Translations under genes and position numbers: made by a program
The notes under the pieces: generated by a model
The model's input: the letters and a program-made list of their open reading frames with translations, nothing else
What the model was told of the DNA's origin: nothing
Databases searched by the model: none
NCBI GenBank assembly: GCA_017541035.1
Contig: JAFXZW010000064.1
Coordinates: forward strand, 1-32,866
Source: Eubacterium sp.
Lineage (GTDB): Bacteria > Bacillota > Clostridia > Lachnospirales > Lachnospiraceae
DNA length: 32,866 bases
Direction: 5' to 3'
In this document: piece after piece, positions 3,512 through 32,866 of the stretch
Numbering within the stretch: the first letter of the stretch is position 1
Layout of the letters: each line of letters opens with the position of its first letter

Positions 3512-3567
3512 ATCGATTCCTCGCTTCCGCCCGGGATAACACTAATTTTGTGGCCGAAGAATCTGTT

Positions 3568-4308: not shown

Positions 4309-4328
4309 GAAAAATCCCGCTTACGTTC

Positions 4329-5357: not shown

Positions 5358-5378
5358 TTTCTCATTCCACCTCTATCG

Positions 5379-7028: not shown

Positions 7029-7050
7029 TTTTTACTCCTGACTGCCCTCA

Positions 7051-7073
7051 CCCCGGATGCCGAGCATCCGGGG
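7051..7073. other. GC-rich hairpin between NRPS and esterase genes
   Basis: A 10-bp perfect stem (CCCCGGATGC with GCATCCGGGG, loop CGA) lies between the NRPS stop and the esterase ribosome binding site. No U-tract follows on the minus strand, so it is not a standard terminator. It could be an mRNA processing or stability element, or partly attenuate transcription. Confidence 0.6.
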
Positions 7074-7100
7074 TTTCAGGATACTGAACCAATATCCATG

Positions 7101-10091
7101 TTACCGTTTTCTGCGAAAACGGCTTGCGATCTTGATAAAGAAATTCCCCTTATCGTCCAGCTTCTTCCGCAGTTCACCGATGGTCACATCATTCTGTGAA
7201 TTATGCGTTACCAGAGCCTGTGCCGTCTTAACGTAAAGCTCCTTAAAATGATCCATACTTTCATCCCGGTAAAGGCTGGCCGCATAGTCCATCATCAGCA
7301 TCAGGCCTTCCTCACCGTCCAGGATTTCCATATCCAGCACGGTCTGGGAAGCCGCCTGATTCTGGCGGATCTCCACGGACTCCACATCCATTCCTTCCAT
7401 TCCGCCCATATCACGGATATCCTGCTGATAAAGAAGGTAAGCGCACTCGCCTTCACCCACCTGATTACGGGTGTCAACGTACGGATAACAGCTGTGCTCG
7501 ATACCCTTCTGTACCTGATCATGCACATCTGCGAAAAGATCGCGGAGAGTCATTTTATCATTAAAGCGGATACCTACCGGCAGATCCCGGAAAAGCAATC
7601 CCACGGTGGACATCATCTGCATATCCTCGCGTCCGTTGTAGATCCAGGACAGCTTGATATCATTTGCTTTGTTGTAAATGGAAATGGCCAGTGCCGCAAC
7701 AGCAATAAAGAATTCGTTCCGGCTGATCTTGTAGATACGCTCCACAGCCTTCATCTGCGGCTGCTCGATACCCAGATCGGCAAAGATTTCACCCATGTCA
7801 TTTTCACGGGACTTCGTATCCATCTTCGGATAGCTGGACCATTCGACACTGTCATAACGATCTTCAAAGTACTTTTTGCTTTCTTCATAGAAGGCCGTTC
7901 CGATGTCATCCTCACGCTTCTGAAGCATCAGATAATAGAAATCCGGATCCGGCTGCATACCCGCGTAGATCTTGCCGATATTTCCCATAAATACCTTCAG
8001 ACTGGTGCCGTCAAAAAGGGTATGATGTACATCAAAGAAGAGATATCCGTACTTTTCCGTTTCAAAAACGCGCACGCGGTAAAGCGGGCTGTTGATGATC
8101 TTGAATGGCTGTACCAGAGTATCCTTCACACTGGCCAACTCAAATTCACTCAGTTTTTCAACGATTATCTCACGTTCTACCTCAGGCGTATACCTCTGAA
8201 CGACATTCCCGTCCTCGGTAAAATGATAGGTGGTCAGCAGGGCCGGGTGATTACGGATTACCGTTTTCATGGAATCCACCAGCTTCTCTATCTCAAACAT
8301 TTCCTTATCGAATCTGGTCATGGAGAAGAGATTATACATGGTGGACATGGGAGTGTAGAGCTGATAATCCACCATATACAGCTGCTCGGCCGTAAGAGGA
8401 TGATCCTTCTTCATGGCCTCCGCATTTTTCTCCTCCGGAGACTCTCCGTCGCTTTCCGCTGCCTTTGCCTCATACAGCTCGGCGATCTTCTCCGGTGTAC
8501 GTCCGCGGAAGATCTCGCTGGCCTGCAGTCCGGGCAGTCCGCTCTCTACGATCACCTTGATGGAAGCAAGGGAATCTCCGCCCAGCTCATAGAAATCATC
8601 ATGGATTCCGACCTGATCCACCTTCAGCACCTTGGCCATGGCAAGGCACAGCTTCTCCTGTGTTTCATTCTCCGGTGCCACATACTCTGTCCGGAAATCG
8701 GAAGCATCCGGCTGGGGAAGAGCCTTGCGGTCCATTTTCCCGTTCGGCTTAAGAGGAACGGAATCAATCTTCATGTAATAGGCCGGGATCATGTAATACG
8801 GAAGACGTTTGGACAGCTCCTCCCGCATGAAACCGGAATCCACCTTCACATCTGCTGTATAGTAAGCGCAGAGATAGCTCTTGCCGTTCTCTTCAAAGCC
8901 TCTGGCTGCCGCCCAGTCAATACCCAGAACCTGCTTTACCGCTGCCTCGATCTCTGCCGGCTCGATACGGTTTCCGTTGATCTTGATCATATCACCGGTC
9001 CGTCCCAGCAGAACGTAATTTCCGTCTTCCTGCTTCCGCGCAAGATCTCCGGTGTGGTAAACGCCGTTCACGAAGGCCTTTGCACTCTCCTCCGGCAGGT
9101 TGATATAACCGCGTACATAGGGATTCTCGAAACAGAGCTCACCCATTTCACCGTCTGCCACCTCATTTCCATCCTCATCCAGCAGGGTGATCTTCGTCTC
9201 CACCTCCGGCTTTCCGATGGGGCAGGATTCATAGGAGCGGTCAATCTTGAACACGCCGACAGCAAAACCGCTTTCGGAGCATGCGTAGATGTTGATCAGA
9301 TCCAGTTTCTTGTTATAGACGTTATTTGCCGGTTCACTTCCCACAAAGAGCATGCGCAGGAAGGGGCCGGTTGTATTGCCCAGCATACGGACGTAGGAAG
9401 GAGTCAGGAAGGTAATGCTGATCCTCTTCTCCAGGAATAAGCGCCTCAATGCTCCGGGGTTCTTGATGGTTGCATAGCCAACTACATATACCCGGACATT
9501 CGGAACACTGAGACAACGCAGGATCACAATGACCGAAGCGACAAAGTTAAAGGGTGCAAGCAGCGCCAGACGATCCTTCTCCGTAAAGGGTTCCTTTCCA
9601 TCCAGCATGATGGAATCGATCGCTCTTCCCAGATTACCGAATTCGTGCAGCACGCCCTTGGGATTACCGGTAGTTCCGGAGGTGTAGATTGCATAAGCCG
9701 CGTCATGTTCATCCACGGGTTCATGCCCACTCAGTGCATCGAAATGCATGACCTCTTCCCAGTTCGCCATGGAAAGTTCTGCCTTACAGCCGCAGTCCTC
9801 ACGAATATAGGCAATTCTTTCAGGGGCATAGGTATCCTCCACCAGAGCCCAGGCCGCTCCGGCCTTCCAAACACCCACCATCGCCACAACAGGAAGGACA
9901 CCACGAGGCAGATTGATCAAAACAAAATCTTCTTTTCCGATTCCGTTCTTTTTCAGATAGGCATAAACCTTGCCGGACATATCATCCATCTGAGCATAGG
10001 TCAGACCTTTTGTATAAACCTCGTCATAAATAAATGCATGGCTTGGATTATTCTGTGTATACTGCTCCAGCTGATCTAAAATGTACTGCAT
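7101..10091 (-). CDS. Single-module nonribosomal peptide synthetase, A-T-C
   Basis: The 996-residue enzyme activates an amino acid, loads it on a carrier and probably condenses it with an acceptor. The adenylation domain (about 1-465) has YTSGTTGNPKG (136-146), YHTGDLA (345-351), GRTGDMIKINGNRIEP (363-378) and NGKMDR (450-455). Its A5 motif, ACSESG (270-275), departs from the usual YGPTE type. The carrier domain (about 475-545) has GGDSL with phosphopantetheine site S507. The condensation domain (about 565-985) has HHTLFDG (689-695), an intact HHxxxDG. No thioesterase or reductase follows. ATG 10091 is preceded by AAGGAG; an in-frame ATG 15 codons upstream lacks a site. A phosphopantetheinyl transferase is needed in trans. 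Amino acid and acceptor are unknown. Confidence 0.93.
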   Translation of the reverse strand: MQYILDQLEQYTQNNPSHAFIYDEVYTKGLTYAQMDDMSGKVYAYLKKNGIGKEDFVLINLPRGVLPVVAMVGVWKAGAAWALVEDTYAPERIAYIREDCGCKAELSMANWEEVMHFDALSGHEPVDEHDAAYAIYTSGTTGNPKGVLHEFGNLGRAIDSIMLDGKEPFTEKDRLALLAPFNFVASVIVILRCLSVPNVRVYVVGYATIKNPGALRRLFLEKRISITFLTPSYVRMLGNTTGPFLRMLFVGSEPANNVYNKKLDLINIYACSESGFAVGVFKIDRSYESCPIGKPEVETKITLLDEDGNEVADGEMGELCFENPYVRGYINLPEESAKAFVNGVYHTGDLARKQEDGNYVLLGRTGDMIKINGNRIEPAEIEAAVKQVLGIDWAAARGFEENGKSYLCAYYTADVKVDSGFMREELSKRLPYYMIPAYYMKIDSVPLKPNGKMDRKALPQPDASDFRTEYVAPENETQEKLCLAMAKVLKVDQVGIHDDFYELGGDSLASIKVIVESGLPGLQASEIFRGRTPEKIAELYEAKAAESDGESPEEKNAEAMKKDHPLTAEQLYMVDYQLYTPMSTMYNLFSMTRFDKEMFEIEKLVDSMKTVIRNHPALLTTYHFTEDGNVVQRYTPEVEREIIVEKLSEFELASVKDTLVQPFKIINSPLYRVRVFETEKYGYLFFDVHHTLFDGTSLKVFMGNIGKIYAGMQPDPDFYYLMLQKREDDIGTAFYEESKKYFEDRYDSVEWSSYPKMDTKSRENDMGEIFADLGIEQPQMKAVERIYKISRNEFFIAVAALAISIYNKANDIKLSWIYNGREDMQMMSTVGLLFRDLPVGIRFNDKMTLRDLFADVHDQVQKGIEHSCYPYVDTRNQVGEGECAYLLYQQDIRDMGGMEGMDVESVEIRQNQAASQTVLDMEILDGEEGLMLMMDYAASLYRDESMDHFKELYVKTAQALVTHNSQNDVTIGELRKKLDDKGNFFIKIASRFRRKR

Positions 10092-10231
10092 TCTCTTTCT
10101 CCTTCCTGTTATGCAAAATATTCTAGTTATCCACACTGTAACGTCTCAGGTTTCTATCCTCCCAAATAGTCGTGCTTTAACTTCTCTATTTTATCATATT
10201 CCCCTCATCCGGTACAAGGCTTTTTCCCACC

Positions 10232-10260
10232 TTGAATCCTTTTTTCAAAAGTGCTATGAT
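10232..10260 (+). promoter_or_regulatory. Sigma-A promoter of the antiporter gene
   Basis: TTGAAT (10232-10237) and TATGAT (10255-10260) are 17 bases apart, and the -10 ends 26 bases before the ATG at 10287. The gap 10092-10286 is divergent. No clear promoter was found for the NRPS on the other strand. Confidence 0.7.
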
Positions 10261-10286
10261 TAGCCTCAACAAAAGGAGAAATAGTC

Positions 10287-11510
10287 ATGGATACGTTGGA
10301 TATTTTACGGCAACTCTGTATCATTATCGTTGCAGCCAAGATCTTCGGATTACTGGCGCGCAAAATCAAAGCGCCTCAGGTCGCCGGCGAGATCATCGCA
10401 GGTCTTCTGATCGGTCCCAGTGCCTTCGGCTGGGTGCAGTCCTCGGACTTCCTGTCCGGTCTGGCGGAAGTGGGCGTGATCATCCTGATGTTCACCGCCG
10501 GTCTGGAGACGAATATCTCCGATCTGAAAAAAACAGGTGTCAAGGCCACCATCATCGCCTGTGCCGGCGTATTCATCCCCCTCGTCTGCGGCACTCTGCT
10601 CTACATGGCCTTTTACGGATGGTCAGCAGTCGGAACGGAGGAATTCTACCGTGCCATTTTCATCGGCACCATCCTGACGGCAACCTCCGTCAGCATCACT
10701 GTGGAAACCCTTCGGGAAATGGGTAAGCTCCAGGGAGAACTTGGCCAGACCATCATGAGTGCGGCCATTATCGATGACGTGATCGGCATCATCGTACTGA
10801 CGGTCGTGATCGGTTTCAAGAAACCCGACTCGGCAGTCACCAGCGTACTGCTCCGCACGGGCGCCTTCTTCCTGCTTGCTCTGGTGCTTGGCGTCATTAT
10901 CTACAAGCTATTCAAATGGTATGACAGCCGCCATCCCCACACACGGCGTATCCCGATCCTCGGAATCGCTCTTGCCTTTGCCCTTTCCTACGTTGCGGAT
11001 AAATACTTTGGCGTAGCGGACATCACGGGAGCGTATGTAGCCGGTGTCATTCTCTGCCAGCTGCGGGATTCGAAATACATAACCGAAAAAATGGATATCA
11101 ATTCCTACATCATTTTCGGTCCCGTCTTCTTCTGCAGTATCGGACTGTCTACTAACGTCCGTACTCTGGATATGACTATCCTCTGGTTCTCTCTGGCTTT
11201 CGTGGCCGTAGGACTCGTGTCCAAGATCATCGGCTGCGGGATAACCGCTCGTATTCTGGGATTTAAGGGACACAACGCCCTGAAGGTAGGCTGCGGAATG
11301 ATGACACGCGGCGAAGTAGCCCTCATTGTAGCCCAACGGGGTCTGAAAGCAGGCATGCTTGAGCCGGCTTACTTTACCTCCGTCATCCTGCTGATCATCA
11401 CCAGTTCCATCCTGACGCCGCTTCTGCTAAAGGCACTGTATGCAAAGGATCCCCCGGAGGAAAAAGCGGTTCAGACGAATGTACAAAAAGAAAATGAGCT
11501 GCGGGTTTAA
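10287..11510 (+). CDS. Monovalent cation/proton antiporter, CPA2 family
   Basis: This integral membrane exchanger swaps Na+ or K+ for protons for pH and ion homeostasis. The 407-residue protein is hydrophobic throughout, with about 12-13 helices. Family marks are the TATSVSIT segment (131-138) in the discontinuous helix region and SAAIIDDVIG with adjacent aspartates D163-D164, the ion-binding pair of electrogenic CPA2 exchangers such as NapA. There is no C-terminal TrkA-N domain, unlike KefB/C; the tail after the last helix is short and polar. The start has AAAGGAG before ATG 10287. It is the only plus-strand gene in a long minus-strand stretch, transcribed divergently from the NRPS. Which cation it carries is not visible. 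Confidence 0.93.
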   Translation: MDTLDILRQLCIIIVAAKIFGLLARKIKAPQVAGEIIAGLLIGPSAFGWVQSSDFLSGLAEVGVIILMFTAGLETNISDLKKTGVKATIIACAGVFIPLVCGTLLYMAFYGWSAVGTEEFYRAIFIGTILTATSVSITVETLREMGKLQGELGQTIMSAAIIDDVIGIIVLTVVIGFKKPDSAVTSVLLRTGAFFLLALVLGVIIYKLFKWYDSRHPHTRRIPILGIALAFALSYVADKYFGVADITGAYVAGVILCQLRDSKYITEKMDINSYIIFGPVFFCSIGLSTNVRTLDMTILWFSLAFVAVGLVSKIIGCGITARILGFKGHNALKVGCGMMTRGEVALIVAQRGLKAGMLEPAYFTSVILLIITSSILTPLLLKALYAKDPPEEKAVQTNVQKENELRV

Positions 11511-11519
11511 GCCCGCAGC
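11498..11519 (-). terminator. Terminator of the VTC/DUF4956 operon
   Basis: An 8-bp GC-rich stem (11498-11505 with 11512-11519) is followed on the minus strand by a T-rich tract (TCATTTTCTTTTTG). It overlaps the last codons of the convergent antiporter gene. A second hairpin (11556-11568 with 11578-11588) lies directly after the DUF4956 stop but lacks a U-tract. Confidence 0.65.
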
Positions 11520-11588
11520 CCAAAGAGGGGGGATTAATAAGAGATTGTCGCTTTTCTCCCGCTTTTTCAGTGTGTCAGAAAAAGGGAG

Positions 11589-12272
11589 TCAGAGATTATC
11601 TGCTACTGTCACCGGCCTTGAAACGGATATTTCCAAATTCCCGTTTCCTGTCCGGAGTTCATCGATCATTTCCTTCAGGGAAACGCCCGGCTTCACCGTC
11701 ACAAGATAACTGATCTTGTACAGGCTTCCCATGTTCGTTGTCTTCACTTCTTCAATCCTGTAAGAAGAGAGATATTTATCAAATGTACTGTCAAACTTTC
11801 CTTCGAAATCCAGGTTCTCCGGCACCATGATCTTCAGCATACGCTCCCCGTCACTTCGTCCGCCGAAGCCGCTTATATCAAGCACCAGCATCAGCACGGA
11901 GATCACTATCGTGAAGACGCCTGCGATTCCCAGATACCCCATACCGGTTGCCAGACCGACTGCCATAGCTTCAAAGATTGCCGCAATCTCCTGCCCCTTT
12001 CCCGGTACGGAACGGAAACGGACGAGACTGAAGGCACCGGCTACTGCCACGCCGGCTCCCAGATTGCCGTTTACCAACATGATCACCATCTGTACGGCAG
12101 CGGGCAGTACAACCAGCGTTACGAGGAAGCTGCGGGAGGGCTTATTTTTGATCTTATACAGGAGGGCGATCACAAGCCCGCACACAACAGAGCAAAGTGT
12201 TGCCAGCAGAAAATCCTGCCCGGTCAAAGTTGTCGAAGTAAAAACCGAATCAAAAATCAAACTGTTAAGCAT
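11589..12272 (-). CDS. DUF4956 family membrane protein
   Basis: The 227-residue protein has about four hydrophobic helices in its first 140 residues (near 20-38, 48-66, 72-85 and 103-135). The conserved block GNLGAGVAVAGAFSLVRFRS followed by PGKGQEIAAIFEAMAVGLA is characteristic of DUF4956. A soluble C-terminal domain of about 90 residues follows. The function is not established, but the family is repeatedly found beside VTC-domain proteins, as here. Its ATG overlaps the end of the VTC gene by 8 bases, with AAAGGAG inside that gene, so the two are translationally coupled and probably act together at the membrane. Confidence 0.9.
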   Translation of the reverse strand: MLNSLIFDSVFTSTTLTGQDFLLATLCSVVCGLVIALLYKIKNKPSRSFLVTLVVLPAAVQMVIMLVNGNLGAGVAVAGAFSLVRFRSVPGKGQEIAAIFEAMAVGLATGMGYLGIAGVFTIVISVLMLVLDISGFGGRSDGERMLKIMVPENLDFEGKFDSTFDKYLSSYRIEEVKTTNMGSLYKISYLVTVKPGVSLKEMIDELRTGNGNLEISVSRPVTVADNL

Positions 12273-13038
12273 ACACCATCACTCCTTTCTTTCCAGCGTA
12301 AACTGCATGTTCATTTCGTTTTATCTGCTGCCTGAGAGACATCGCTCTCGCAGTCATCACCTCGTAACCCCTTCCGTATTTGGAGAAGGTTGCGGGGAAT
12401 ATCGAAAGCTCACTGAAGATCCTCGCCAGCTCCATGGGAAAGGCATTTGCGATCTTCACTTCCATCAGATACTGACCCGGCTGCAGAAGCTCTTCTCCCT
12501 GCGGACCGGATGTCAGCTCCAGGTCCTCTGTTCTCCAGCGAATCTCTCTGTCAAATGTGATCCGCAGCTCCGGATCTGCGATGCCCTTCATGGCAATCCT
12601 CTTATAGGATATCGCCATTGCCGGTCTCATCCCTTCATTTCCCGCAAGCATACTGTCGATCTCCGATTTGATCTGTGACCTTTTTGCAAGCTCCCCTTCC
12701 CCATCCAGGTATGTCTTAGCTTCACCGTAGGGCGCATCAATCCGTCTTTTATATACCACGCCATCGTATTTTTTCTTGATTTCGATAAAGGAGGTCTCTC
12801 TTCTGTCCTTCGGAGTCCCGTAGGTTCTGAGTCTTAACTTCTCCTTGTAAAGCGGTTTTTCCAGAGATCTCCGGATCAGCTGATAATCCGGTGTATCATA
12901 GTAAATATTCAGAATGTCCGTCTCCCCGTACTGATCCACTTCCGCGATGTCCTTCAGCCTGTTGCGAAGCAGAGTATACTGTTCCTTTGTAAGGAGATAT
13001 TTTACTTCCACTCTTTTGAATACTTCCTGAAACAACAT
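12265..13038 (-). CDS. VTC-domain protein (polyphosphate polymerase-like)
   Basis: The 257-residue protein matches the VTC/CYTH-like tunnel fold. In yeast Vtc4 this fold makes polyphosphate from ATP; bacterial members are annotated polyphosphate polymerase-like without firm proof. Visible marks are the opening EVFKRVEVKYLLT, a series of basic strand motifs (KLRLRTYG, EIKKKYDGVVYKRR, SYKRIAMKG, LRITFDREIRWR) and the acidic strand YLMEVKIANAFP, which would line the tunnel and bind nucleotide and metal. I prefer ATG 13038, placed 5-7 bases after GAGGTGA, over the GTG three codons upstream. No membrane helix is present, so the partner DUF4956 protein probably provides the membrane link. Confidence 0.88.
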   Translation of the reverse strand: MLFQEVFKRVEVKYLLTKEQYTLLRNRLKDIAEVDQYGETDILNIYYDTPDYQLIRRSLEKPLYKEKLRLRTYGTPKDRRETSFIEIKKKYDGVVYKRRIDAPYGEAKTYLDGEGELAKRSQIKSEIDSMLAGNEGMRPAMAISYKRIAMKGIADPELRITFDREIRWRTEDLELTSGPQGEELLQPGQYLMEVKIANAFPMELARIFSELSIFPATFSKYGRGYEVMTARAMSLRQQIKRNEHAVYAGKKGVMVYA

Positions 13039-13069
13039 GCGGATCACCTCTTTTCCATCACCGTTTTCT

Positions 13070-13098
13070 CTGTTACTGACGCTATCTTAACCTGTCAA
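13070..13098 (-). promoter_or_regulatory. Possible promoter of the VTC/DUF4956 operon
   Basis: On the minus strand a perfect TTGACA (complement of 13093-13098) is followed after 17 bases by TAACAG (complement of 13070-13075), a weak -10. It lies between the upstream operon's terminator and the VTC start, where a promoter is expected. Confidence 0.5.
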
Positions 13099-13141
13099 TC
13101 TGAAAGAAAGCTTAAAAAATAACGGATTTTTTTAATTTTTC

Positions 13142-13202: not shown

Positions 13203-13874
13203 CTATTGTCTGTCGAAATATTTCTTTCCTCCGTTCGGATAGAAAAATGTGCGGATATAGCCATCCCGGGAAACAACTACAAAGGCATTGTCCCTTTCCC
13301 GGTAATAAACATCATCTCCATCTTCCTTTTCCAGTTTATGGAGACTTGCCGGATCCCTGATCACGTCATTGGCTGCCGCCACATAGGCTTTTGTATCCGA
13401 AAAGCCCATTTCTATACCGTGCTTCTCAAAATGTTCATCCAGAAGCTTCTTACTCCGAAAACGATACTCCTTATTCTCAGTCGACGCCTCGGTCTTCTTT
13501 TCGGTTTCCGACGGTTTTTCCGTTTGAACCTCGGTCTTTTCTTCGGTCTTATTCGCGGTCTTCTCTTCAGTCTTTTCTTCTGTCTTTTCTTCTGTCTTTG
13601 TCCCGGTCTTCTCTTCCGTCGGGGCTTCCGTATCCTTCCCGACCTGTGTCGACCCGGTCGCTTCCTGCGTATTCTCCTGCGAATTTCCCTTCTCCGTGGT
13701 AACAACGGTAAGTCCACCGTCCTGGCCGCCTGTACCGGAACCCGATGAATCATTATCCCGGAATTTTAATAAAAGGATAACTGCCGCTATGACAAGACCG
13801 ATCAGAATAACCGCAATCAGGATCTTTCCACTGAGATGATTATCTTCTTTTTTCGGATCGTTCTTCTGTCCCAT
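13203..13874 (-). CDS. Membrane-anchored protein with Thr/Glu/Lys linker and compact C-terminal domain
   Basis: The 223-residue protein has a short cytoplasmic N-terminus, one membrane helix (about 18-37), a disordered linker rich in EKT repeats (about 85-130) and a C-terminal domain (137-223) expected outside the cell. That domain includes LLDEHFEKHGIEMGF and ends FVVVSRDGYIRTFFYPNGGKKYFDRQ. I recall similar endings on hypothetical proteins of related bacteria and an overall look like small RNase-type (BECR-fold) toxin domains, but this is impression, not proof. No immunity gene is evident. Its ATG directly follows the TAA of the upstream Gly-Tyr-Gln gene, with AGGGTGA as ribosome site, so the two are coupled and probably partners. 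Confidence 0.85.
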   Translation of the reverse strand: MGQKNDPKKEDNHLSGKILIAVILIGLVIAAVILLLKFRDNDSSGSGTGGQDGGLTVVTTEKGNSQENTQEATGSTQVGKDTEAPTEEKTGTKTEEKTEEKTEEKTANKTEEKTEVQTEKPSETEKKTEASTENKEYRFRSKKLLDEHFEKHGIEMGFSDTKAYVAAANDVIRDPASLHKLEKEDGDDVYYRERDNAFVVVSRDGYIRTFFYPNGGKKYFDRQ

Positions 13875-15347
13875 TTATTCACCCTGACTGCTATCGTTCT
13901 GTACAAAAGCACTGTCCGTTACAGATTCATCCGTTATGCTCTCAGCCACAGAAAAGGCTGAATCCGCATCTCCCGGAAGATCATAGTCCTTCCGCCCTGC
14001 TTCTTCGGTTTGCTGACCATAGGCCTGTCCTGCGTCGGGCTGCTGACCATACCCCTGCCCTGCGTCGGGCTGCTGACCATAACCCTGTCCTGCGTCGGTC
14101 TGCTGGCCGTAGGCCTGTCCGGCATCGGGCTGCTGACCATAACCCTGTCCTGCATCGGGCTGCTGAACATAACCCTGCCCTGTGCCGGGCTGCTGACCGT
14201 AGGCCTGCTGCTGGTATGCTCCCTGCCCGCCGTAAGCCTGCTGATCATAACTTTGCTGGCCGTAACCCTGCTGCTGATAGGTTCCCTGCCCGCCGTAAGC
14301 CTGCTGGCCATATCCCTGCTGACCATATGTCTGCTGGCCGTAAGGTTGCTGGCCATAAGACTGCTGCCGGTATGCTCCCTGCCGGCCATAGTCCTGTTGA
14401 CCATATCCCTGTTGCGGATCGTAGGACTGCTGACCATAATTCTGCCGAGAGTAAGCCTGCTGGCCATATCCCTGCTGACCGTATGTCTGCTGGCCGTAAG
14501 GTTGCTGGCCATAACCCTGCTGACCGTAACCCCGTTGCTCATTCTGCTGACCATAACTCTGCTGTGCCTGCCAGGGTGCGTAGCCTCCCTGTGCCTGTGC
14601 CGGATACTGTACATTTCCCTGAGGCAGATCCCTGTTAAAGGGGGCATAGGCATTGGCTCCCGGTGCCGGTACGCCGCGCATGGCAGGAACCACACCGCTG
14701 TAAGGCTTCTTTGAAAGCATAAAGAAATATAATCCCGTAAAGAAAAACGCCAGTGTTTCAATAACCAGAATCGTGATGGTGATTCCTTTGCTTCCTGATG
14801 AGTAGAATATAGCATTGATGCTCTTGGTTGCGATCACGGTAACCATGACAAATGTGAGGCCGATCAGATAAAGGATCGTCGGAACGATCCACCCGTCCGG
14901 TCGATTGGTCCGGTCGAACTTTTTCGCCGATGTCGCCGAAACAATATAGGCGGCATAGGATAAGATGCCTCCGACGATAACCATATCAAACTTCCAGTCT
15001 CCCAGCGTGGTGGAAACATTTCCCTTGCTTCTGATAACAACATAGATGATCAGCATCACGACCTCAAGGATCAGGAAAATTCCGGTCATCATGATAAATG
15101 CAGAATACTTCCGGATATTTGCCACAAAAAGGACGACCGCAGCGGAAAGAAGCCCCAGCGTTGCAAGTGACTCCAGGATTGCCGCAGACAGATAAACAGT
15201 CTTGTCTCCTCCGTTGGCATATCTCGACTTCATCAATTCGACGGTCATCTTCCAGCTATCCACCAATGAGATTCCGCGAAGCACAGCCAGGGTAAGCCAG
15301 AAAAAACCGGCTGCCAGATTAAAGCCATTTTGTCTTTGATGATTCAT
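13875..15347 (-). CDS. Six-helix membrane protein with Gly-Tyr-Gln prion-like tail
   Basis: The 490-residue protein has six hydrophobic segments (about 8-28, 52-76, 83-105, 120-138, 153-173 and 188-211). A low-complexity tail follows (about 263-448), built from [11 protein letters not shown] and a 10-residue [10 protein letters not shown]-type unit, then an acidic end of about 40 residues. Residues KK after helix 6 suggest the tail is cytoplasmic. Such Tyr/Gln/Gly tails resemble eukaryotic prion-like domains that self-associate; that behaviour is inference here. I do not recognise the membrane domain. The start ATG 15347 follows AAGGAGGGGGC; an upstream in-frame ATG is less suitable. It lies 42 bases after degV and abuts the TM-linker gene, suggesting one operon. 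Confidence 0.87.
14004..14561. repeat. Coding low-complexity repeats (GYGQQ and 30-bp units)
   Basis: The tail of the six-helix protein is encoded by short degenerate 12-15 bp units. From 14007 to 14186 there are six 30-bp units encoding [10 protein letters not shown] variants. A longer block encoding the series [20 protein letters not shown] occurs twice (around 14470-14520 and 14310-14360). Length variation between strains would be expected. Confidence 0.92.
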
Positions 15348-20059: not shown

Positions 20060-21448
20060 CTAGAAATTGTTATACAGGAAGGGCTGGTATCCGCTTCCCG
20101 CCATGAAAATGACACCCAGAATCAGCGCCAGGAGCGAAATTACCGTCTTCCAGCCATACACAAGTCCGGCTGACATTTCCCTGCTTTTTACCACACCCTC
20201 AAAGGCCTTCCGGATATTGCGGAAGAGCGGCGTGCAGGCCAGGATCGCAATGATGAAAATGAAAATGTTATTCTGCAGTGTAACCGTGATCACCTGAGAT
20301 GAAAAGCCCTCTCCGAATCCGAAGAAGCCCTTCAGCGCCGTTCCCAGCTGACTGAAATCCGTGAACCGGAAGATCAGCCATCCCAGGTTGAAGACAAATA
20401 CCACATAGATATGCGCCAGTACCTTCGGCATCCTTATCTCTCTCTTGCTCAGCGCATTATCCAGAGAGATAAATACGAAATAATAGAAGCCCCAGATCAC
20501 GAAGTTCCAGGTCGCTCCATGCCAGACACCGGTCAGAAGCCAGACGATCAGAAGATTAACCTTCGTCCGTGCGCTGCCCTTCCGGCTGCCGCCCAAAGGA
20601 ATGTATACATAGTCCCGGAAGAAGAAGCTAAGCGTCATATGCCACTTGCGCCAGAATACCTTGATGGAATCCGCACAGTAGGGATAATCGAAGTTTTCCG
20701 GATAGATAAAGCCCGCCATCTGTCCCAGACCGATAGCCATATCCGTATAAGCTGAGAAATCGAGATACATCTGAAGTGAAAAGAAAATGGAACCTATCCA
20801 GATACCAAGGGTCGGCATTTTAGCCAGATCCTCCGACATGGGAAGCAGCGTGTCAGCCACCTTACCCATCTGATCCGCCAGGATCACTTTCTTGGCCAGG
20901 CCGAGAGAGAACCGATAGATACCCGCAGCCATATTGGCTGTGGAGATCTTTCTCCGTACCATACCGGCTTTCATATCGCCGTAACGGACGATGGGGCCCT
21001 GGGATACATGGTGAAAGCAGACAACGTACAGCAGGAAGTCACGGACATCATCCTCCGCGTCACATTTTCCCGTGTAGACGTCGGCTACATAAGAAATGAG
21101 TTTGAAAATGTAGAAGGAAAGACCAAGCGGCATAGCCACTGTCATGAAGAAGCCCGCGTACTTGAAGAAGGCAAGAACCGCCACCAGCATACCGATGGTG
21201 GTCCACAGCATCAGCGGGCTGCCCTCCGTTTTCTGGATCTGGCGTCCGCCGATCCATGCGATCAGTGTACAAAGGAACAGAACCAGCAATCCTCCGATAC
21301 CGGCGAACAGGTAGAAGATCAGAGAAAAAATGAGGAGCACCCTGTTCTGATACCTGACATTGGAATCCGTCCGCGTCAGCACGACCTGATTAACGATCAG
21401 GAAAATGGGCAAAAAGCATACTGTAAAGATTAATGTGGAAAATGACAT
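20060..21448 (-). CDS. MBOAT membrane O-acyltransferase (AlgI/DltB-like)
   Basis: The 462-residue polytopic protein moves acyl groups across the membrane. It shows the MBOAT core FWRKWHMTLSFFFRDYVYIP (H270) followed by the invariant histidine H310 in LLTGVWHGATWNF. The conserved LDFSAYTDMAIGLG lies before them, and about 10-12 hydrophobic helices are present. Pairing with a DHHW-type protein points to the AlgI/PatA branch (polysaccharide or peptidoglycan O-acetylation) rather than D-alanylation, since no dltA or dltC is adjacent. The ATG at 21448 has GGGGGA upstream. It is the first gene of the operon and has a strong promoter. Confidence 0.94.
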   Translation of the reverse strand: MSFSTLIFTVCFLPIFLIVNQVVLTRTDSNVRYQNRVLLIFSLIFYLFAGIGGLLVLFLCTLIAWIGGRQIQKTEGSPLMLWTTIGMLVAVLAFFKYAGFFMTVAMPLGLSFYIFKLISYVADVYTGKCDAEDDVRDFLLYVVCFHHVSQGPIVRYGDMKAGMVRRKISTANMAAGIYRFSLGLAKKVILADQMGKVADTLLPMSEDLAKMPTLGIWIGSIFFSLQMYLDFSAYTDMAIGLGQMAGFIYPENFDYPYCADSIKVFWRKWHMTLSFFFRDYVYIPLGGSRKGSARTKVNLLIVWLLTGVWHGATWNFVIWGFYYFVFISLDNALSKREIRMPKVLAHIYVVFVFNLGWLIFRFTDFSQLGTALKGFFGFGEGFSSQVITVTLQNNIFIFIIAILACTPLFRNIRKAFEGVVKSREMSAGLVYGWKTVISLLALILGVIFMAGSGYQPFLYNNF

Positions 21449-21725: not shown

Positions 21726-23354
21726 TTACTCTTCTCTCTCCTCTCCCAAAGTCTGGTCGGGGAAAATGTTCTTCTTTCTTACGATCTTCATGCTGGCATT
21801 CTTGATAAACTCCTCATCACGAAGTTTGACACGAACGATCTGTTTATAAAGCGGGCGCCCCTTATTGACCTTGTCCTTGAGTTTCTCGAAGTAGGCCAGG
21901 TTGCCGCGGTGCTCTTCGTCAGGATAGATCTCAGCCACGATCTTGGACTGCTCTTCATAAACGAGAACCTCCGCTACAGCATCGTCCCTGGCAAGATCCA
22001 TTTCCAGCTCCTCAGGCGAAATGTTCTCGCCATTGCTGAGAATGATCAGATTCTTCTCCCGTCCCGTGAGGACGATGAAACCGTCTTTCGTAACGTAACC
22101 AAGGTCTCCGGTGCGGTACCAGCCGTCTTTTAACACCTCTTCGGTTGCTTCCTCATCCATGTAGTAACCCTTCATGACGAGATCGCCCCGGAACTGGATC
22201 TCTCCATCATCGGAAACACGAACGTCAATGCCGGGGACAAGCTGTCCGACGGAACCATCCAGATGGTGATGCGGCCGGTTTACAGCGGTACAGGGAGAGC
22301 ACTCGGTAGTTCCGTATCCGTTGAGGATCTCGATACCCCAGGTACGGAATTCCTTTACATATTTGGAGTCAAGGGGTGCTCCGCCGCAGATGATGTACTC
22401 CAGTCTTCCTCCGAAGGCTTCATGGATCGATGCATAGGTCTTCTTCCTTACATCTATTCCCATCTTAAGAAGCAGATTCGTGGACTGCATCAGAGCACGG
22501 AAAGCTTTCTCCTTTCCTCTTTTCCGGATCTCGCTCCAGATCTGACGATGGAAGAATTCAACAAAAAGCGGCACCAGGAACATAGTCTGAGGGCCAAAAT
22601 CCTGCATATCCTTCTTCACCTTTTTCAGGCTCTTGTTGATGTAGGCGGATGTCCCATGATTCAGGACCATAAGAATACCTACCACCAGTCCAAAAGCATG
22701 ATGGAAAGGAAGAACAGCGACTACCGATCCCTCCAACCGGAAAAGCTTACAGGTCTGATTGATTTCGAAGGTAATATTCCTGTTGGTAAGTTCAACCCCC
22801 TTGGAGGTACCGGAGGTACCGGAGGTAAAGAGGATGGCTGCGGTTTTATCGGGATCCAGCTCATAGCGCAGAAAATCATTCTTTCCTTTTGCGATCAGTT
22901 CCCTTCCTTCCTTCAGCATATCTTCGAATTCATCGAAGCCGAAGATCTTGCGCCCACTCTTTTTCTTCACCTTATCCTTAAAGGTTTCACTGATAAAGAC
23001 TGTATTGGCGTCTCCCTTCCGAAGCAGGTTCAGAAGCTCATCCTCCGGAAGTCCTTTGTCGATAGCTACAGCAACATTTCCACCCAGGATTGCTGCAAAA
23101 AAGGTAACGATCCACTCATAAGAATTCTCCCCGATAATGGCCAGATTCCTTCCCCTGAGTTTTTTCTGAAACATCCATGTTCCCAGGGCATTCACGTCAT
23201 TATACAGATCTCCGTAGGTCTTGCGTATCACCTGCTCTTCTTCAGGATAATAAAATGCCACTTCATCCGGTTGAGTTTCTGCCTTGCCGGCCAGCAGGTC
23301 CTTCAGATCGCGGATCTGCGTAAGCTCATAATAGGGATAAGCCTTGTTCTTCAT
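21726..23354 (-). CDS. AMP-binding acyl-CoA synthetase-like enzyme
   Basis: The protein (542 residues from ATG 23354) belongs to the ANL superfamily and probably activates a carboxylic acid, likely a fatty acid, as acyl-AMP and then acyl-CoA. Motifs are P-loop TSGTSGTSKG (177-186), NGYGTTE (345-351), GWYRTGD (411-417), GREKNLIILSNGENISPEE (431-449) and C-terminal NASMKIVRK with likely catalytic lysine K523. An in-frame start 22 codons upstream exists, but a hairpin falls in that stretch and family members usually begin like MKNKAYPYYE. The ribosome site at ATG 23354 is weak (GAGAAGAAA), so the choice is not certain. It lies 91 bases after hydA. Confidence 0.88.
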   Translation of the reverse strand: MKNKAYPYYELTQIRDLKDLLAGKAETQPDEVAFYYPEEEQVIRKTYGDLYNDVNALGTWMFQKKLRGRNLAIIGENSYEWIVTFFAAILGGNVAVAIDKGLPEDELLNLLRKGDANTVFISETFKDKVKKKSGRKIFGFDEFEDMLKEGRELIAKGKNDFLRYELDPDKTAAILFTSGTSGTSKGVELTNRNITFEINQTCKLFRLEGSVVAVLPFHHAFGLVVGILMVLNHGTSAYINKSLKKVKKDMQDFGPQTMFLVPLFVEFFHRQIWSEIRKRGKEKAFRALMQSTNLLLKMGIDVRKKTYASIHEAFGGRLEYIICGGAPLDSKYVKEFRTWGIEILNGYGTTECSPCTAVNRPHHHLDGSVGQLVPGIDVRVSDDGEIQFRGDLVMKGYYMDEEATEEVLKDGWYRTGDLGYVTKDGFIVLTGREKNLIILSNGENISPEELEMDLARDDAVAEVLVYEEQSKIVAEIYPDEEHRGNLAYFEKLKDKVNKGRPLYKQIVRVKLRDEEFIKNASMKIVRKKNIFPDQTLGEEREE

Positions 23355-23380
23355 TTTCTTCTCGCTTTCCGTAATGAGGA

Positions 23381-23400
23381 GCTGCCTTATACAAGGCAGC
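23381..23400. other. Hairpin between hydA and the acyl-CoA synthetase-like gene
   Basis: An 8-bp perfect stem (GCTGCCTT with AAGGCAGC, loop ATAC) without a U-tract lies 27-46 bases upstream of ATG 23354. It could protect or process the hydrogenase mRNA end, or limit read-through. Confidence 0.5.
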
Positions 23401-23445
23401 CCCCTATCTAAACACATCATCTTCCTGATTTCAAAAGTATTCGGA

Positions 23446-27783: not shown

Positions 27784-29325
27784 TTATTTTCCAAGATTCT
27801 CCGTTTCCGGAACGACAACCGTCTTATCATAGCAGGAGAATATCTCCTTAACCTTATTCTGATCCGGTTTTGGTGTAATGGCACTTACGATGGGCACGAT
27901 GATCAGTCCGGCGATCATGGTAACCGCTCCCGCATTGATAGGAGATTTAATAACCGGAACGAACATGTTGAAGATCGTAAAGCCAACGCCTAAGATATAG
28001 CTGGCCCAAACCGCTGCACGGGTGATATTTTTGGAATATAAGCCGTACATAAAGGGTGCCAGGAAGGCGCCGGCGAGAGCGCCCCAGGAATAGCCCATCA
28101 GCTGGGCGATAAATGTCGGCGGATTAAATGCCAGAATGACAGATACAGCGATAAATACAAGGACAAACAACTGCATCAGACGCAGCTGCATCTTGTCGGA
28201 CATTTCCTTCTTCTTTAAGGGCTTGATCAGATCCAGTGTCAGCGTAGAGCTGGAGGTCAGTACCAGTGAAGACAATGTGGACATGGAAGCCGAGAATACC
28301 AGAACCACTACGATACCTATGATGATATCAGGCAGGGAAGACAGCATGGTCGGAACAATGGAATCATATGCCACGGATCCGTCTGTCTTATAGATATCCG
28401 GATTGTCGGAGAAAAGGCGACCGAAACCGCCCAGGAAATAACATCCACCGGCAATCACGATGGCAAAGAATGTAGATACGACAGTACCGGTCTTAACAGC
28501 CTTCTCATCTTTAATCGCATAGAACTTGTGAACCATCTGAGGAAGTCCCCAGGTTCCCAGAGATGTCAGGATAACAACCCCCAGAAGACTCAGGGGATCC
28601 GGTCCGAAGAAGGAAGCAAAAAGTCCCTGTCCGCCCTGAAGCGCTTCGGTGGTTACGGACGCATCCGCCGGAACCATGGAAAGCTGACGCACTGCCTCGG
28701 TGAAACCACCCTTTCCGGCCAGTACGGCACCGATGACAAGGCAGATACCGATCAGCATGATGATACCCTGAATGAAATCATTCAGTGCCGTTGCCATATA
28801 TCCGCCGATCACCACATAAGCTCCGGTAAGGGCTGCCATGATGATAACGCAGATCCGGTAATCGATATCGAAGGCCATCCCAAACAGACGGGAAAGGCCG
28901 TTATACACCCCAGCGGTATAAGGTACCAGAAAAACAAAGGCAATGATGGAGCCTGCTATCCGAAGCGCCTTGGAATCAAAGCGCTTGCCGAAGTACTCCG
29001 GCATGGTTCTCGCATCCAACTGCTGAGACATAAGTCTGGTCCTGCGCCCCAAAACCAGCCAGGCAAGAAGACTTCCGATAAATGCATTTCCCAATCCGAT
29101 CCAGGTTGATGCCAGACCGAATTTCCATCCGAACTGACCGGCATAACCGATGAACACAACTGATGAGAAATAGGAAGTACCAAAGGCAAAGGCCGAGATC
29201 CACGGCCCTACTGTACGCCCACCCAGGACATAGTCATTCACGTTCTTTGCCTTATTCCGGGAATAAATACCAATACCCAGCATGACTGCAAAGAATACCA
29301 CCAGCAGGATAATCTTGATCGCCAT
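27784..29325 (-). CDS. Sodium/solute symporter, SSS family
   Basis: The 513-residue inner-membrane carrier couples Na+ entry to solute uptake. About 13 hydrophobic helices are present. Family signatures include the N-terminal YVLGGRTVGPWISAFAFGTS, GGYMATALNDFIQGIIM and SASMSTLSSLVLTSSS, whose serines correspond to the conserved Na2 site. The closest known types are proline (PutP) and pantothenate/related carriers, but the solute cannot be fixed. ATG 29325 follows AGAGGATGG. The gene is a single transcription unit with a perfect-consensus promoter and a strong terminator. It is the last clearly intact chromosomal gene before tRNA-Gln. Confidence 0.93.
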   Translation of the reverse strand: MAIKIILLVVFFAVMLGIGIYSRNKAKNVNDYVLGGRTVGPWISAFAFGTSYFSSVVFIGYAGQFGWKFGLASTWIGLGNAFIGSLLAWLVLGRRTRLMSQQLDARTMPEYFGKRFDSKALRIAGSIIAFVFLVPYTAGVYNGLSRLFGMAFDIDYRICVIIMAALTGAYVVIGGYMATALNDFIQGIIMLIGICLVIGAVLAGKGGFTEAVRQLSMVPADASVTTEALQGGQGLFASFFGPDPLSLLGVVILTSLGTWGLPQMVHKFYAIKDEKAVKTGTVVSTFFAIVIAGGCYFLGGFGRLFSDNPDIYKTDGSVAYDSIVPTMLSSLPDIIIGIVVVLVFSASMSTLSSLVLTSSSTLTLDLIKPLKKKEMSDKMQLRLMQLFVLVFIAVSVILAFNPPTFIAQLMGYSWGALAGAFLAPFMYGLYSKNITRAAVWASYILGVGFTIFNMFVPVIKSPINAGAVTMIAGLIIVPIVSAITPKPDQNKVKEIFSCYDKTVVVPETENLGK

Positions 29326-29412: not shown

Positions 29413-29440
29413 CATTTTCGACAGTTTTTTAAAAAATAGC

Positions 29441-29469
29441 TTGCATTTCGTAAAAAGCTATAATATAAT
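29441..29469 (+). promoter_or_regulatory. Promoter of tRNA-Gln
   Basis: TTGCAT (29441-29446) and a perfect TATAAT (29464-29469) are 17 bases apart. The tRNA begins at 29489, so the precursor has a 5' leader of about 12 bases. Confidence 0.85.
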
Positions 29470-29488
29470 GTCATTCGTTGCGAAACAT

Positions 29489-29560
29489 TGGGGTATCGCC
29501 AAATGGTAAGGCAACGGACTCTGACTCCGTCATTTCAAGGTTCGAATCCTTGTACCCCAG
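29489..29560 (+). tRNA. tRNA-Gln (anticodon CTG)
   Basis: The cloverleaf is complete: acceptor TGGGGTA (29489-29495) pairs with TACCCCA (29553-29559), discriminator G at 29560. The anticodon stem ACGGA/TCCGT encloses loop CTCTGAC with anticodon CTG, and the T-arm is CAAGG-TTCGAAT-CCTTG. UGGGGUA is the usual tRNA-Gln acceptor strand. CCA is not encoded. Confidence 0.96.
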
Positions 29561-29564
29561 TCGA

Positions 29565-29600
29565 GGGACATCAGTAGAAATGCTGATGTCCCTTTTCTGT
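29565..29600 (+). terminator. Terminator of tRNA-Gln
   Basis: A 10-bp stem (29565-29574 with 29583-29592) is followed by TTTTCTGTTTT. It begins 5 bases after the tRNA. Confidence 0.88.
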
Positions 29601-29783
29601 TTTCCTTGAAAAATCAAGGGATGTCAGACGTTTACCACTTCTGTTTCATTAAAAAGTGTTCAATTCTACCGAAAAGAAAATCAGAAAGAAAATCCTGAAT
29701 AATACGGTAAAAAACGGCTTATTTCGAAATGAATGATAACATCAATGATAACATGGCTGTGTCTCCGGAAGGAGATGATAGAC
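29601..29783. other. Non-coding stretch between tRNA-Gln terminator and polymerase gene
   Basis: No gene, promoter of good quality, or integrase is visible. A small stem (CCTTG/CAAGG) occurs near 29604-29619, and an 11-base direct repeat AATGATAACAT lies at 29732-29742 and 29744-29754 (period 12), just before the polymerase start. This is where an attachment site of an element inserted at the tRNA would be expected, but its partner is outside the window. Confidence 0.4.
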
Positions 29784-31634
29784 ATGAGAACCATGCCGTT
29801 ACCTGAACTTAATATCGTAAATCCCCTTCAGGCGGCAGCTCAGCATCCTGTGATTTTAAGGTACCCAATTTCCGATCCTCTGGCAGCAAAAGGCTGGAGA
29901 CGGAATTCTATGGGTAAGTTCCGCTCAAACGGAAAGATCCAGGATAAGAGGGGATTCAAACTCTATACCCGCAGACGGAATCTGCGGCGTTTCATTGACG
30001 ACTTTTCCAAAAAGTCGTCATTCACCTCATCCCAAAACACAGATAAATACTGGGGTTACGGGGCGGGGTCATGCTCGACTATGGGAATCCCCAACCCGAA
30101 AATGACCCCGCTTGCACTCTTGGAGGATCCGAGCAAAGTCTCATCCGATACAGAAAGCAAGCTGCCCTCATTATCTTCTTTTGCAGAGTACCCTTCTCTT
30201 GTAGCTGCAAGGAATGCTGATCCATGCCTTCTTATTGCATATGACTCAGAATGGCAGAATCTTGAGACGGACCGGGATATGCTGTCCTGGCAGTATGCCT
30301 TAGTGGATGGTGAAGATCTTGTGGAATTCCTTTTCCTTAAGGATGGAGATAAGAATCTTTCTCTGCAGGATGCCCTTGCCTGTATTCTGGATCACCTTGG
30401 CATCTATAAGCCCGTAGACGAGCGAAAGCTTCGAAGATACACATATTGTTCCGAATGGAAGGGAACCGAAGCGGTCGAGAAAACCACCGCTGATCTGGCA
30501 GAGGCAAGATCCTGTGCCAGATATGTATATCGCAAGGGTATCGGCTTCACGCAGGAACTGATCGTGGATAAGCCTGATCGATTCCACCACCGCGATACCC
30601 GTGACTGGGCATGGTTCCACACATTCCTGGACTACTCCATCGTGAAAAGCATCCGGATCAGCATTGTATGTCATGCAGCTGCAGTAGATCTCTCTGCACT
30701 AAGTTACGAATGGAAGAATGCCCTTCGGTATCTTACAGAAGTACAGGGCGGACTGGTATCGCTGAAGCCGATCCGATATGCCCCCAGAAGCCTCCAAAAT
30801 GTAAACAACACCAGCGTATATCCGATTTCTCTTTCCATCTCAGATACTATGTGTCACGCTCCGGCGGGAAAGAAGAAGTTGAAGAACCTTGGTGAAGTCA
30901 TCGGTGTTGAAAAGTTGGATATCGATGAACAGATCAAGGCGAATATGCGGGACCTGTTAGAGAAGGATCCTGTCCTTTTCTCAGAATATGCATCCACAGA
31001 CAGCATTGTCACCCTTCTGTACGCTTCAGCCTTATATGGGTATAACAATGCCCTGCCTGTCACGATAACAAGCGCTACTGCCAAAGTAATGAAGGAGATC
31101 ATGATGAATTATCTGAATTGTCCCACGACCGATGATTTCAACCGGGTTTACCGGGGATTAGAGAAGGTAAGCCACGGTAAATTCAAGTTTGAGGATCGTC
31201 CGGGCTTTGTGGAAGCCACCAGTCTTGAACCAATCTCTATTGATGCCAATGCAGTGCAAGACTGCGCTTCGAGGGCGTATCACGGCGGTTACAACATTTG
31301 TACTGAAGTCGGATTCTTTCCTTATGAGACCTATGACTATGACCTTCAGAATGCCTACCCCACAGCGATGTGTCTGGTTCCTGACATCAACTGGGAATGT
31401 CCGATCAGAAGTGAGATCATTCGCCGGGAAATGTCTCTCTCCGACTTTGCAGGAATCGGTGGAATCAACCCGATCACCCCCTTTGTTGGATATGTAAGGT
31501 TTGTATTTCCAGAAAGCTGTAAATATCCCTGTATCCCAATCAGTGTTGAAGGGATCCCACAGTATCCTCTTACTTCAGAGGGACTGGACGGAGTTTATGT
31601 GCTCTCATCATGTGATCAGCTTCCATGCAAATGA
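29784..31634 (+). pseudogene. B-family DNA polymerase (mobile-element type), 3' part lost
   Basis: The frame encodes 616 residues from ATG 29784, nine bases after AAGGAG. It matches the organellar/viral-type DNA polymerase B group carried by plasmids and integrative elements. The 3'-5' exonuclease motifs are visible: Exo I AYDSEW (D154, E156), Exo II CHAAAVDLSAL (D302) and Exo III EYASTD (Y402, D406). Polymerase motif A follows as YDYDLQNAYP (D520). Motifs B (KxxxNSxYG) and C (DTD) are absent. The polymerase frame reads naturally to GLDGVYV near 31600 and then runs out in eight unrelated codons because the DNA becomes relaxase sequence. The polymerase cannot be functional; an isolated exonuclease is possible but unlikely. 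Confidence 0.85.
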
Positions 31635-32637
31635 CTTTGTAACCCCAGCAGAGTGTTTGGAAATTGGCCAGACCTTCTGCCAGCAGTTCTTCCCGGACTT
31701 CCAGAGCCTGATCGCCGTTCACCAGGACAAGGATCACCTGCATATCCACATCGTAACCAATACGGTATCCTTTGTGGACGGACACAAGCTGCATCAGACG
31801 AAAGCGGAACTTCAGGCACAGAAGGACTTTACCAATCAGCTCTGCGAATCCAGAGGACTGCATGTTGCAGAAAAAGGAAAACACTTTGACGGATCCGAGA
31901 TTGAACCCGGTGAAATCCGAGCATGGAATAAGAATAAGTATCAGATGCTGATCGATGAAAAAAAAGAAAGCTACTTGATCGACTGTGCGGAAGCCATCGT
32001 TGAGACGGTACCGGAATGCTCCAACTCAAAGGAATTTGTTGTAAAGATGGAACTCCGTGGATGGATCGTGAACTGGAACGAAACGAAAGGTCATATCGTG
32101 TTTCGGAACAAGGCCGGAAAGACCATTCGGGACACGAATCTGACCGGAACATTTACATTTAACATAGGATTGGAGGAGATAATCGATGAATTTACAGACA
32201 CGCTTACCGAACTTGACAACGCAAGTGGATCCGCCGAGGAACTGTACGCCCGAAAGATCGGAGAACTCATCCTCTTTGTCGCAGACCTGCTCTTCAACGA
32301 GCTCAAGAAAGCCCTCACTCCTGACAATGCTGCAGGAAAGGGACGAGGAAATCAAAAAACTCCGGCAGGAACTGCAAGAGACGAAAGAGCAAAATTCGAT
32401 GCTTTTCTGGGAAAAATCAGTGCTCGAACAAGAGATTACAGAGAAAACGCTGATCTACTCATCCGAAATGCAGACGATGCAATCGAAGGTAGCCGAGATG
32501 ACCGACGAGTTAGCGATGCAGAAGCAGCAGAAATCGGAGATTCTGAAGCTCTGTCAAAGTTTGTTGAAGGAGAACGACGATCTCAGGAACAACAACGGGC
32601 TGCTCACAAGAGAACAAGAGGAATCGAACTTGGCTGA
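31597..32637 (+). pseudogene. Relaxase/mobilization nuclease, N-terminus lost
   Basis: From MCSHHVISFHAND (ATG 31597) the frame encodes a MobA/VirD2-type relaxase fragment. The metal-binding motif III is intact (HQDKDHLHIHIVTN; H42, D44, H47, H49, H51), followed by the usual segment AQKDFTNQLCESRGLHV. Family members have about 70-80 residues before HHVISF, carrying the nicking tyrosine; these are replaced by the broken polymerase gene. An in-frame ATG at 31501 only reads polymerase DNA out of frame. No ribosome site precedes ATG 31597. After about codon 245 (near 32330) this frame turns Arg/Asp-rich while an overlapping frame becomes a coiled coil, so the true relaxase frame may end or shift there. 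It is probably inactive. Confidence 0.82.
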
Positions 32638-32680
32638 GATTGCCCGGTTACAGTATGAGCTTGATTCGAACCGATACTAA
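32327..32680 (+). CDS. Coiled-coil protein or frameshifted relaxase C-terminus
   Basis: The 117-residue frame from ATG 32327 is Glu/Gln/Lys/Leu-rich with heptad character, for example EIKKLRQELQETKEQN and ILKLCQSLLKENDDL, and ends LQYELDSNRY. It overlaps the final part of the relaxase frame, shifted by +1. Its protein-like composition against the shadow-like composition of the other frame suggests this is the real coding frame here. It has no good ribosome site. It may therefore be either a small mobilization accessory gene or the original coiled-coil tail of the relaxase separated by an indel between about 32320 and 32360. Confidence 0.6.
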   Translation: MLQERDEEIKKLRQELQETKEQNSMLFWEKSVLEQEITEKTLIYSSEMQTMQSKVAEMTDELAMQKQQKSEILKLCQSLLKENDDLRNNNGLLTREQEESNLAEIARLQYELDSNRY

Positions 32681-32715
32681 ACACAATCATTTAGGTTATT
32701 ACCGATATGCATGAA

Positions 32716-32866
32716 TCATACCAGCATAGACTGCTGTGGGATGAATCCAACCTTCTCAAGAATCGCAAGGTCCTTCTTTCTGGTGTTCTTGAGCGTCCAT
32801 ACATTACCACGGCGTTCCATTTTCATACACCTTGCCATTAGCAGCAGATCACGAACAGATATCGTA
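32716..32866 (-). CDS. 3' end of an unknown gene running off the right edge
   Basis: The minus strand is open from the window edge to TGA at 32716-32718, giving 49 residues that look protein-like: it begins TISVRDLLLMARCMKMERRG and includes TRKKDLAILEKVGFIP before the end QQSMLV. It is convergent with the relaxase/coiled-coil frame, 35 bases away, with no terminator between. I do not recognise the family. It is likely part of the same accessory region. Confidence 0.6.
   Translation of the reverse strand, partial: TISVRDLLLMARCMKMERRGNVWTLKNTRKKDLAILEKVGFIPQQSMLV

Follow-up and report, generated by a model that had tools for sequence, protein, structure and literature searches.

What joined a DNA polymerase gene to a relaxase gene that has lost its head, and what kind of element is left at the site? 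The question is posed by the window, a 32,866-base stretch of DNA that makes up the entire contig C114 of the source assembly (2.98 Mb, 139 contigs, 95% complete). A preliminary description had placed a break there, joining the polymerase to a headless relaxase in another frame, and had named three possible causes: a deletion inside a mobile element, recombination between two elements, or a misassembly. Open reading frames, Pfam matches and alignment with an intact relative confirmed the break. This relative, L028, belongs to MAG RUG12082 of an uncultured Lachnospiraceae (genome G335, contig C29) and lies beside the same tRNA-Gln gene; it has both genes complete, as in the intact elements that the description had proposed to look for.

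The left side of the join holds the 5' part of a gene for a piPolB-like DNA polymerase of family B (29733..31601, + strand), which alignment A1 and comparison with L028 assign to residues 1–623 of about 1051. The open reading frame itself spans 29733–31634 (633 aa), its out-of-frame tail (31602..31634, + strand) translating into 10 foreign residues and a stop. In agreement with the preliminary description, translation and comparison with L028 showed that the polymerase is native as far as GLDGVYV (residues 617–623, ending at 31601); it shares 98.9% amino acid identity with residues 1–623 of L028. Three exonuclease motifs (Exo I–III) and motif A (residues 535–543) are present, and motifs B (690–699) and C (760–764), correctly described as missing, fall in the lost part; these motif names are ones we presume to apply to the window and L028 residues. 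All four intact relatives from the genus carry the full family-B set. Because motifs B and C are deleted, the window is regarded as holding a remnant of a pipolin-type element. The remnant had been called an exonuclease-only fragment: its exonuclease motifs are indeed kept, but it also retains polymerase motif A and is thus more than an exonuclease. The truncated protein matched nothing in Pfam or NCBIfam at E values up to 0.1 and nothing among phage records, and gave a weak DNA polymerase match in PHROGs (E 0.009).

On the right side, in a frame different from that of the polymerase, lies a headless relaxase gene of the MobA/VirD2 type (31597..32637, + strand) starting from Met69 of the intact protein, as established with PF03432, tblastn with residues 69–393 of the L028 relaxase and an alignment with four intact relaxases. 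The PF03432 match of the window relaxase (E 5e-23) covers only profile positions 45–132, whereas that of the intact L028 relaxase covers the entire profile (positions 1–132). With profile positions 1–44, or the first 68 residues, missing, the relaxase is without its N-terminal tyrosine region, as had been proposed. In the alignment the four intact relaxases have in common a tyrosine within the stretch ..(R/N/E)YVL.., which we take to be the catalytic one. A three-histidine motif, HQDKDHLHIHIVTN, is kept in the window relaxase and is presumably the metal motif (motif III). The ATG at 31597 was considered as an alternative start after the deletion and rejected, the tyrosine region being absent all the same. 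Relative to L028, the last part of the gene shows in-frame length changes. Among 200 genomes of the family, 85 gave matches to the window relaxase, most of them distant.

The 3' end of the relaxase gene is overlapped in another frame by a coiled-coil-like ORF of 164 aa (32186..32680, + strand; from the ORF list), with counterparts in L028, L047 and L048. An ORF overlaps this end in all five loci (window as above; L028:14419-14853, L047:8064-8579, L048:7705-8748 and L063:5196-6467). The ORFs of L028, L047 and L048 resemble one another (about 41–42%); that of L063 is longer, contains DUF6040 and was not matched by BLAST to the L028 ORF. The mobilisation module thus probably includes a genuine pair of overlapping genes, the relaxase gene and this ORF. 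In L028, 115 bp of the relaxase 3' end (14629-14743) are repeated at 14995-15109 with 84% identity, and the window matches both copies.

The intact locus L028 is arranged in the order polymerase (1051 aa, 9950-13105), oriT-like hairpin, gene for a MobC/NikA-like protein (153 aa, 13270-13731; PF21983 E 1e-10, PF05713 E 3e-7) and relaxase (393 aa, 13626-14807; PF03432 over the entire profile). The hairpin lies between the polymerase and mobC and has a z of -3.5 against 200 shuffles; inspection of the alignment by eye showed it conserved in L047 and L048, but only weakly so in L063. It resembles an oriT and may act as one. Window positions 29431-31601 align with L028 9649-11818 at 97.2% DNA identity, and positions 31597-32497 with L028 13830-14730 at 95.1%. 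Since window position 31601 corresponds to both 11818 and 13834 of L028, 2016 bp are missing relative to L028. The loss takes 428 residues from the end of the polymerase and 68 from the start of the relaxase, together with the oriT-like hairpin and the mobC gene. Base-by-base comparison with L028 near 11818 and 13834 revealed that both ends of the lost stretch have ATGTG in common, a 5-bp microhomology that forms the junction (31597..31601, + strand). By simple arithmetic, five or more shared bases are expected at about 0.5% of random joins. Two mismatches lie directly to the right of the join, consistent with the overall divergence of that arm.

More distant relatives also change at this point: the DNA match of G307 stops at window position 31600, and those of G304 and G331 start at 31598 and 31604, so that the break is no chance event. 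The join was observed in one assembly. With the two remnants in different frames, no fusion protein results. Neither remnant contains a stop or frameshift over the length compared (polymerase 1814 nt, relaxase 888 nt), suggesting that the deletion is probably young.

Of the three causes originally named, a deletion inside a mobile element fits best: both arms match L028 (97% and 95% identity) in the same order and beside the same tRNA, 5 bp of microhomology mark the join, and the missing stretch is unmatched in the source assembly, in a search that had no positive control. We consider it probable that a microhomology deletion in an integrated, mobilisable pipolin-type element explains the join. 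The window would then carry the left end of such an element, integrated in the chromosome beside tRNA-Gln. An intact element would rely on a polymerase of the primer-independent kind for replication, and on the oriT-like hairpin, the MobC/NikA-like protein and the MobA/VirD2-type relaxase for transfer through the conjugation machinery of a helper; in G317, and probably in G335, a tyrosine integrase would insert it at a tRNA gene. In the window copy, the missing 2016 bp (relative to L028) would have been flanked by two copies of ATGTG, and slipped replication or microhomology end joining would be the likeliest route of loss. Judging from the sequence, replication and transfer would have been lost with this stretch. 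Immobilisation, which the preliminary description expected if the join is real, is a reasonable inference; mobC and the oriT-like hairpin are also among the parts removed. With both genes whole in a close relative, the join most likely reflects ordinary decay and not a new fused gene.

A different origin, in which illegitimate recombination brought together halves from different parents, whether two related elements or duplicates of a single element, appears unlikely to us. The right arm is further from L028 than the left (30/582 against 28/1812 nt, p = 6e-6, the right-arm count being taken from the relaxase part before the overlapping ORF only), both at synonymous sites (18/121 against 22/412, p = 0.0013) and at nonsynonymous sites (12/461 against 6/1400, p = 0.0002), which speaks in favour of this origin. 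At fourfold sites alone, however, the step is not significant (left 11/278, right 5/66, p = 0.20). The 300 bp 5' of the polymerase are also more diverged from L028, at about 90% identity. Polymerase and mobilisation modules also seem to swap partners within the genus: between G331 and G317, residue identity is 82% for the polymerase but falls to 44% for MobC and 46% for the relaxase. An exchange between elements could have come at the join or before the deletion. Against recombination as the source of the join itself, L028 is the best match of both arms, in the same order and orientation, and the join falls inside both genes, away from the module border. Moreover, a second copy was not found in the source genome, whose two other relaxases are distant from that of the window (~31–32% identity).

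Still less probable is an assembly error or a chimeric template, by which the 2 kb would be present in the cell but absent from the contig. The assembly is a draft of 139 contigs, and C114 itself ends in a repeat (32674..32822, without strand assignment) that also occurs at the ends of contigs C86 and C11 with 98% identity over 145 bp; the contig stops 44 bases after it, and the repeat is probably the end of an insertion sequence. At the join, by contrast, only 5 bases are shared. Word sizes in common use for assembly far exceed 5 bases, and the overlap is too short for the usual assembly error. In addition, the missing stretch matched none of the contigs of the source assembly (G000), in a search that included no positive control; a DNA search of the same kind did recover both arms in G335.

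That the arrangement is real and functional as a fusion is scarcely credible: both remnants are open frames and an ATG opens the relaxase remnant at 31597, but the frames do not join, the polymerase frame stopping at 31634, which rules out a true fusion gene; both proteins lack catalytic parts; and the same layout in other genomes, which the preliminary description took as the sign of a real fused arrangement, was seen neither in the other 60 genomes of the genus (DNA search with at most four candidates scored per genome, and profile search) nor in an exact scan of viral_contigs for the join sequence (0 matches).

The flank 5' of the element is ordinary chromosome. It contains a sodium:solute symporter gene (27784-29325), located 5' of the tRNA-Gln gene, and three adjoining genes for an iron hydrogenase and its electron-transfer subunits. 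The tRNA-Gln (CTG) gene itself (29488..29562, + strand, ARAGORN) is the probable chromosomal attachment gene next to the element. The polymerase remnant is 98.5% identical to L028 at the nucleotide level, whereas a host symporter gene is 78.5% identical (dS 1.57, one host gene compared); the element thus seems to have moved recently relative to its hosts. Elsewhere, the contig encodes a 1011-aa protein with an amino-acid-adenylation-like region (7101-10136, - strand), along with proteins resembling DltB (20060-21448) and an acyl-CoA ligase (21726-23420). None of the three reaches an NCBIfam cut-off; they possibly form a small biosynthetic cluster.

The window contains only the tRNA-Gln end of the element, the right end lying beyond the contig edge. 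In G335, the polymerase on contig C29 adjoins a whole tRNA-Gln, and contig C44 (L049) carries a copy of the tRNA-Gln 3' half (7159-7274) beside a tyrosine integrase gene (7368-8636); we infer that the two contigs probably hold the two ends of one element. When the source assembly was searched with the integrase-att stretch of L049, only the window's own tRNA region matched, and thus no integrase of that type was seen in the source genome. In G317, about 12.6 kb of one contig look like a whole element, bounded by a tRNA-Pro (CGG) and, at the other side, by a second copy of the tRNA 3' end; from the tRNA-Pro onward there follow a tyrosine-integrase-like gene, an HTH regulator, cargo, relaxase, mobC and polymerase. 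Its repeat is exact over 17 bp, within a longer near-repeat recognised by eye, and its integrase-like protein is 49% identical to the L047 integrase, on which the Pfam scan was made. At least six members of the genus (G302, G304, G309, G319, G321 and G326) also have copies of the tRNA-Gln 3' part about 1 to 13 kb away from a fuller one (for example L050:1998-2197 and 4463-4515), and tRNA-Gln may be a frequent integration site for different elements in this genus. Loci L050 to L053 entered the analysis through BLAST comparison, with a tRNA scan of L050 and L051, and loci L054 and L065 through BLAST and a tRNA scan.

A polymerase profile search of 61 genomes of the genus gave six matches: four whole polymerases (in G335, G307, G331 and G317), the cut window copy and a small scrap with an internal stop close to a contig end in G346. 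The whole polymerases of G307 (L046), G331 (L048) and G317 (L063) comprise 1037, 1009 and 1031 aa. In three of the four intact loci (L028, L048 and L063) polymerase, mobC and relaxase are consecutive; L046 stops at a contig edge. Searching these 61 genomes at the DNA level, with at most four candidates scored per genome, recovered both arms 2 kb apart in G335, the left arm alone, up to the join, in G307, and the right arm alone, from the join, in G304 and G331; most other matches were to the tRNA. TadB/TadC-like divergent genes adjoin the polymerase in G307 (L046:3786-5923) and G331 (L048:440-2546), with a T2SSF match in L048 and similar genes in L046. No tRNA was found in these two scanned stretches, so the insertion site there may differ from tRNA-Gln. 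Locus L047 of G304 (2476-9841) holds a related mobC–relaxase module with an integrase gene beside tRNA-Pro. The profile search returned no polymerase match in G304, a complete genome, indicating that the mobilisation module also exists apart from the polymerase.

In a family sample the L028 polymerase protein was matched only in the source genome among 299, the other 298 including at least one of the same genus (G160), and the window fragment only in the source genome among 200. Class-wide, 3 of 391 genomes matched the L028 protein and 2 of 391 profile A1, the source genome being counted in both; the remaining matches (G457, G593 and G470) were short or weak. In G457, from another family of the class, a contig edge (L052:3-200) encodes a stretch resembling approximately the last 60 polymerase residues at about 50% identity, an indication that such elements occur outside the genus as well. 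Three protein scans of viral contigs confirmed no relative. We found no report of pipolin elements in Lachnospiraceae in the literature accessible to our search, which took in few subscription journals and is weak evidence of absence.

To which polymerases are the intact proteins related? The intact L028 polymerase gave no match to PDB sequences at E values up to 1 and scored 19.7 against PF03175, under its gathering score of 25.8, but matched phrog_11768 (DNA polymerase) with E 2e-11. Among annotated plasmids, 46 records matched it, all below 60% identity, including staphylococcal, Fusobacterium, Limosilactobacillus and Pseudosulfitobacter plasmids. A profile of the four genus polymerases scored 52–235 bits on six plasmid polymerases and 2–7.5 bits on three protein-primed phage polymerases. 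We built a tree of 13 polymerases (the four intact relatives, six plasmid polymerases and three pPolBs; the window fragment, RNA-primed PolB and E. coli piPolB were outside this set). All ten long polymerases split from those of phi29, Cp-1 and PRD1 with support 100/99, the pPolB rows filling only 43–45% of the kept columns, and the four polymerases from the genus formed one group. Three long branches (Helicobacter, L. fermentum and PRD1), together with the part-filled phage rows, make finer placement unsure. On this evidence the polymerase groups with the plasmid (pipolin-type) polymerases, apart from the protein-primed phage ones. The genus polymerases may be primer-independent.

The intact relatives are more interesting than the join: of the 61 genus genomes, 4 encode a whole polymerase. 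G317 combines polymerase, mobilisation and integrase-like genes on one contig, as G335 probably does over two, and the near-identical polymerase in diverged hosts argues for movement of the element between species. Tentatively, and with rather less than even expectation, we suggest one joint reading: the intact relatives would be integrative, mobilisable pipolins in which a primer-free polymerase is coupled to a relaxase, so that, once a single strand has been transferred, the element could itself begin second-strand synthesis in the recipient, independently of host primase; modules would be exchanged as units, and the window would be a copy disabled by loss of the module border. The relatives offer a place to ask whether a self-priming polymerase aids conjugative transfer. 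As for the join, it most likely represents ordinary decay, truncated pipolin polymerases having been described before (PMC7385651).

Protein-primed polymerases of phi29, Cp-1 and PRD1 share the family-B exonuclease and polymerase motifs with those described here but differ in length (553–572 aa), in their DTDS motif C and in their position in the tree. Plasmidic pipolins are closer. We compared S. epidermidis pSE-12228-03, L. fermentum pLME300, S. warneri p3GD01 and Fusobacterium pKCOM1250; we take the first two to be the plasmids meant as plasmidic pipolins, and the label rests on similarity for the other two. Like the relatives, these plasmids encode a family-B polymerase of about 1000–1150 aa that shares their motif set and has a motif C of the TDG type, and all four carry a relaxase on the same plasmid. 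Moreover, in the L. fermentum and Fusobacterium plasmids the polymerase is followed by mobilisation genes, as in the relatives. The plasmids differ in being circular, with an annotated recombinase in three of four (half of pLME300 looked at), whereas the element here is chromosomal at a tRNA gene; polymerase identity is 20–30%, and the window copy is broken. PMC9710591 reports that plasmidic pipolins carry relaxases and resolvases, and lists S. epidermidis and L. fermentum among their hosts.

Integrated E. coli pipolins resemble the apparent element of G317 and the presumed one of G335 in another respect: as described in PMC7385651 and PMC9710591, they are chromosomal, with att repeats over a tRNA gene and a tyrosine integrase. 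Truncated piPolBs and recombinases have been reported among them and might impair replication or mobilisation (PMC7385651), a situation to be set beside the broken copy in the window. Compared with the E. coli pipolins, whose likeness is taken from these descriptions, the relatives presented here add a relaxase–mobC module and an oriT-like hairpin.
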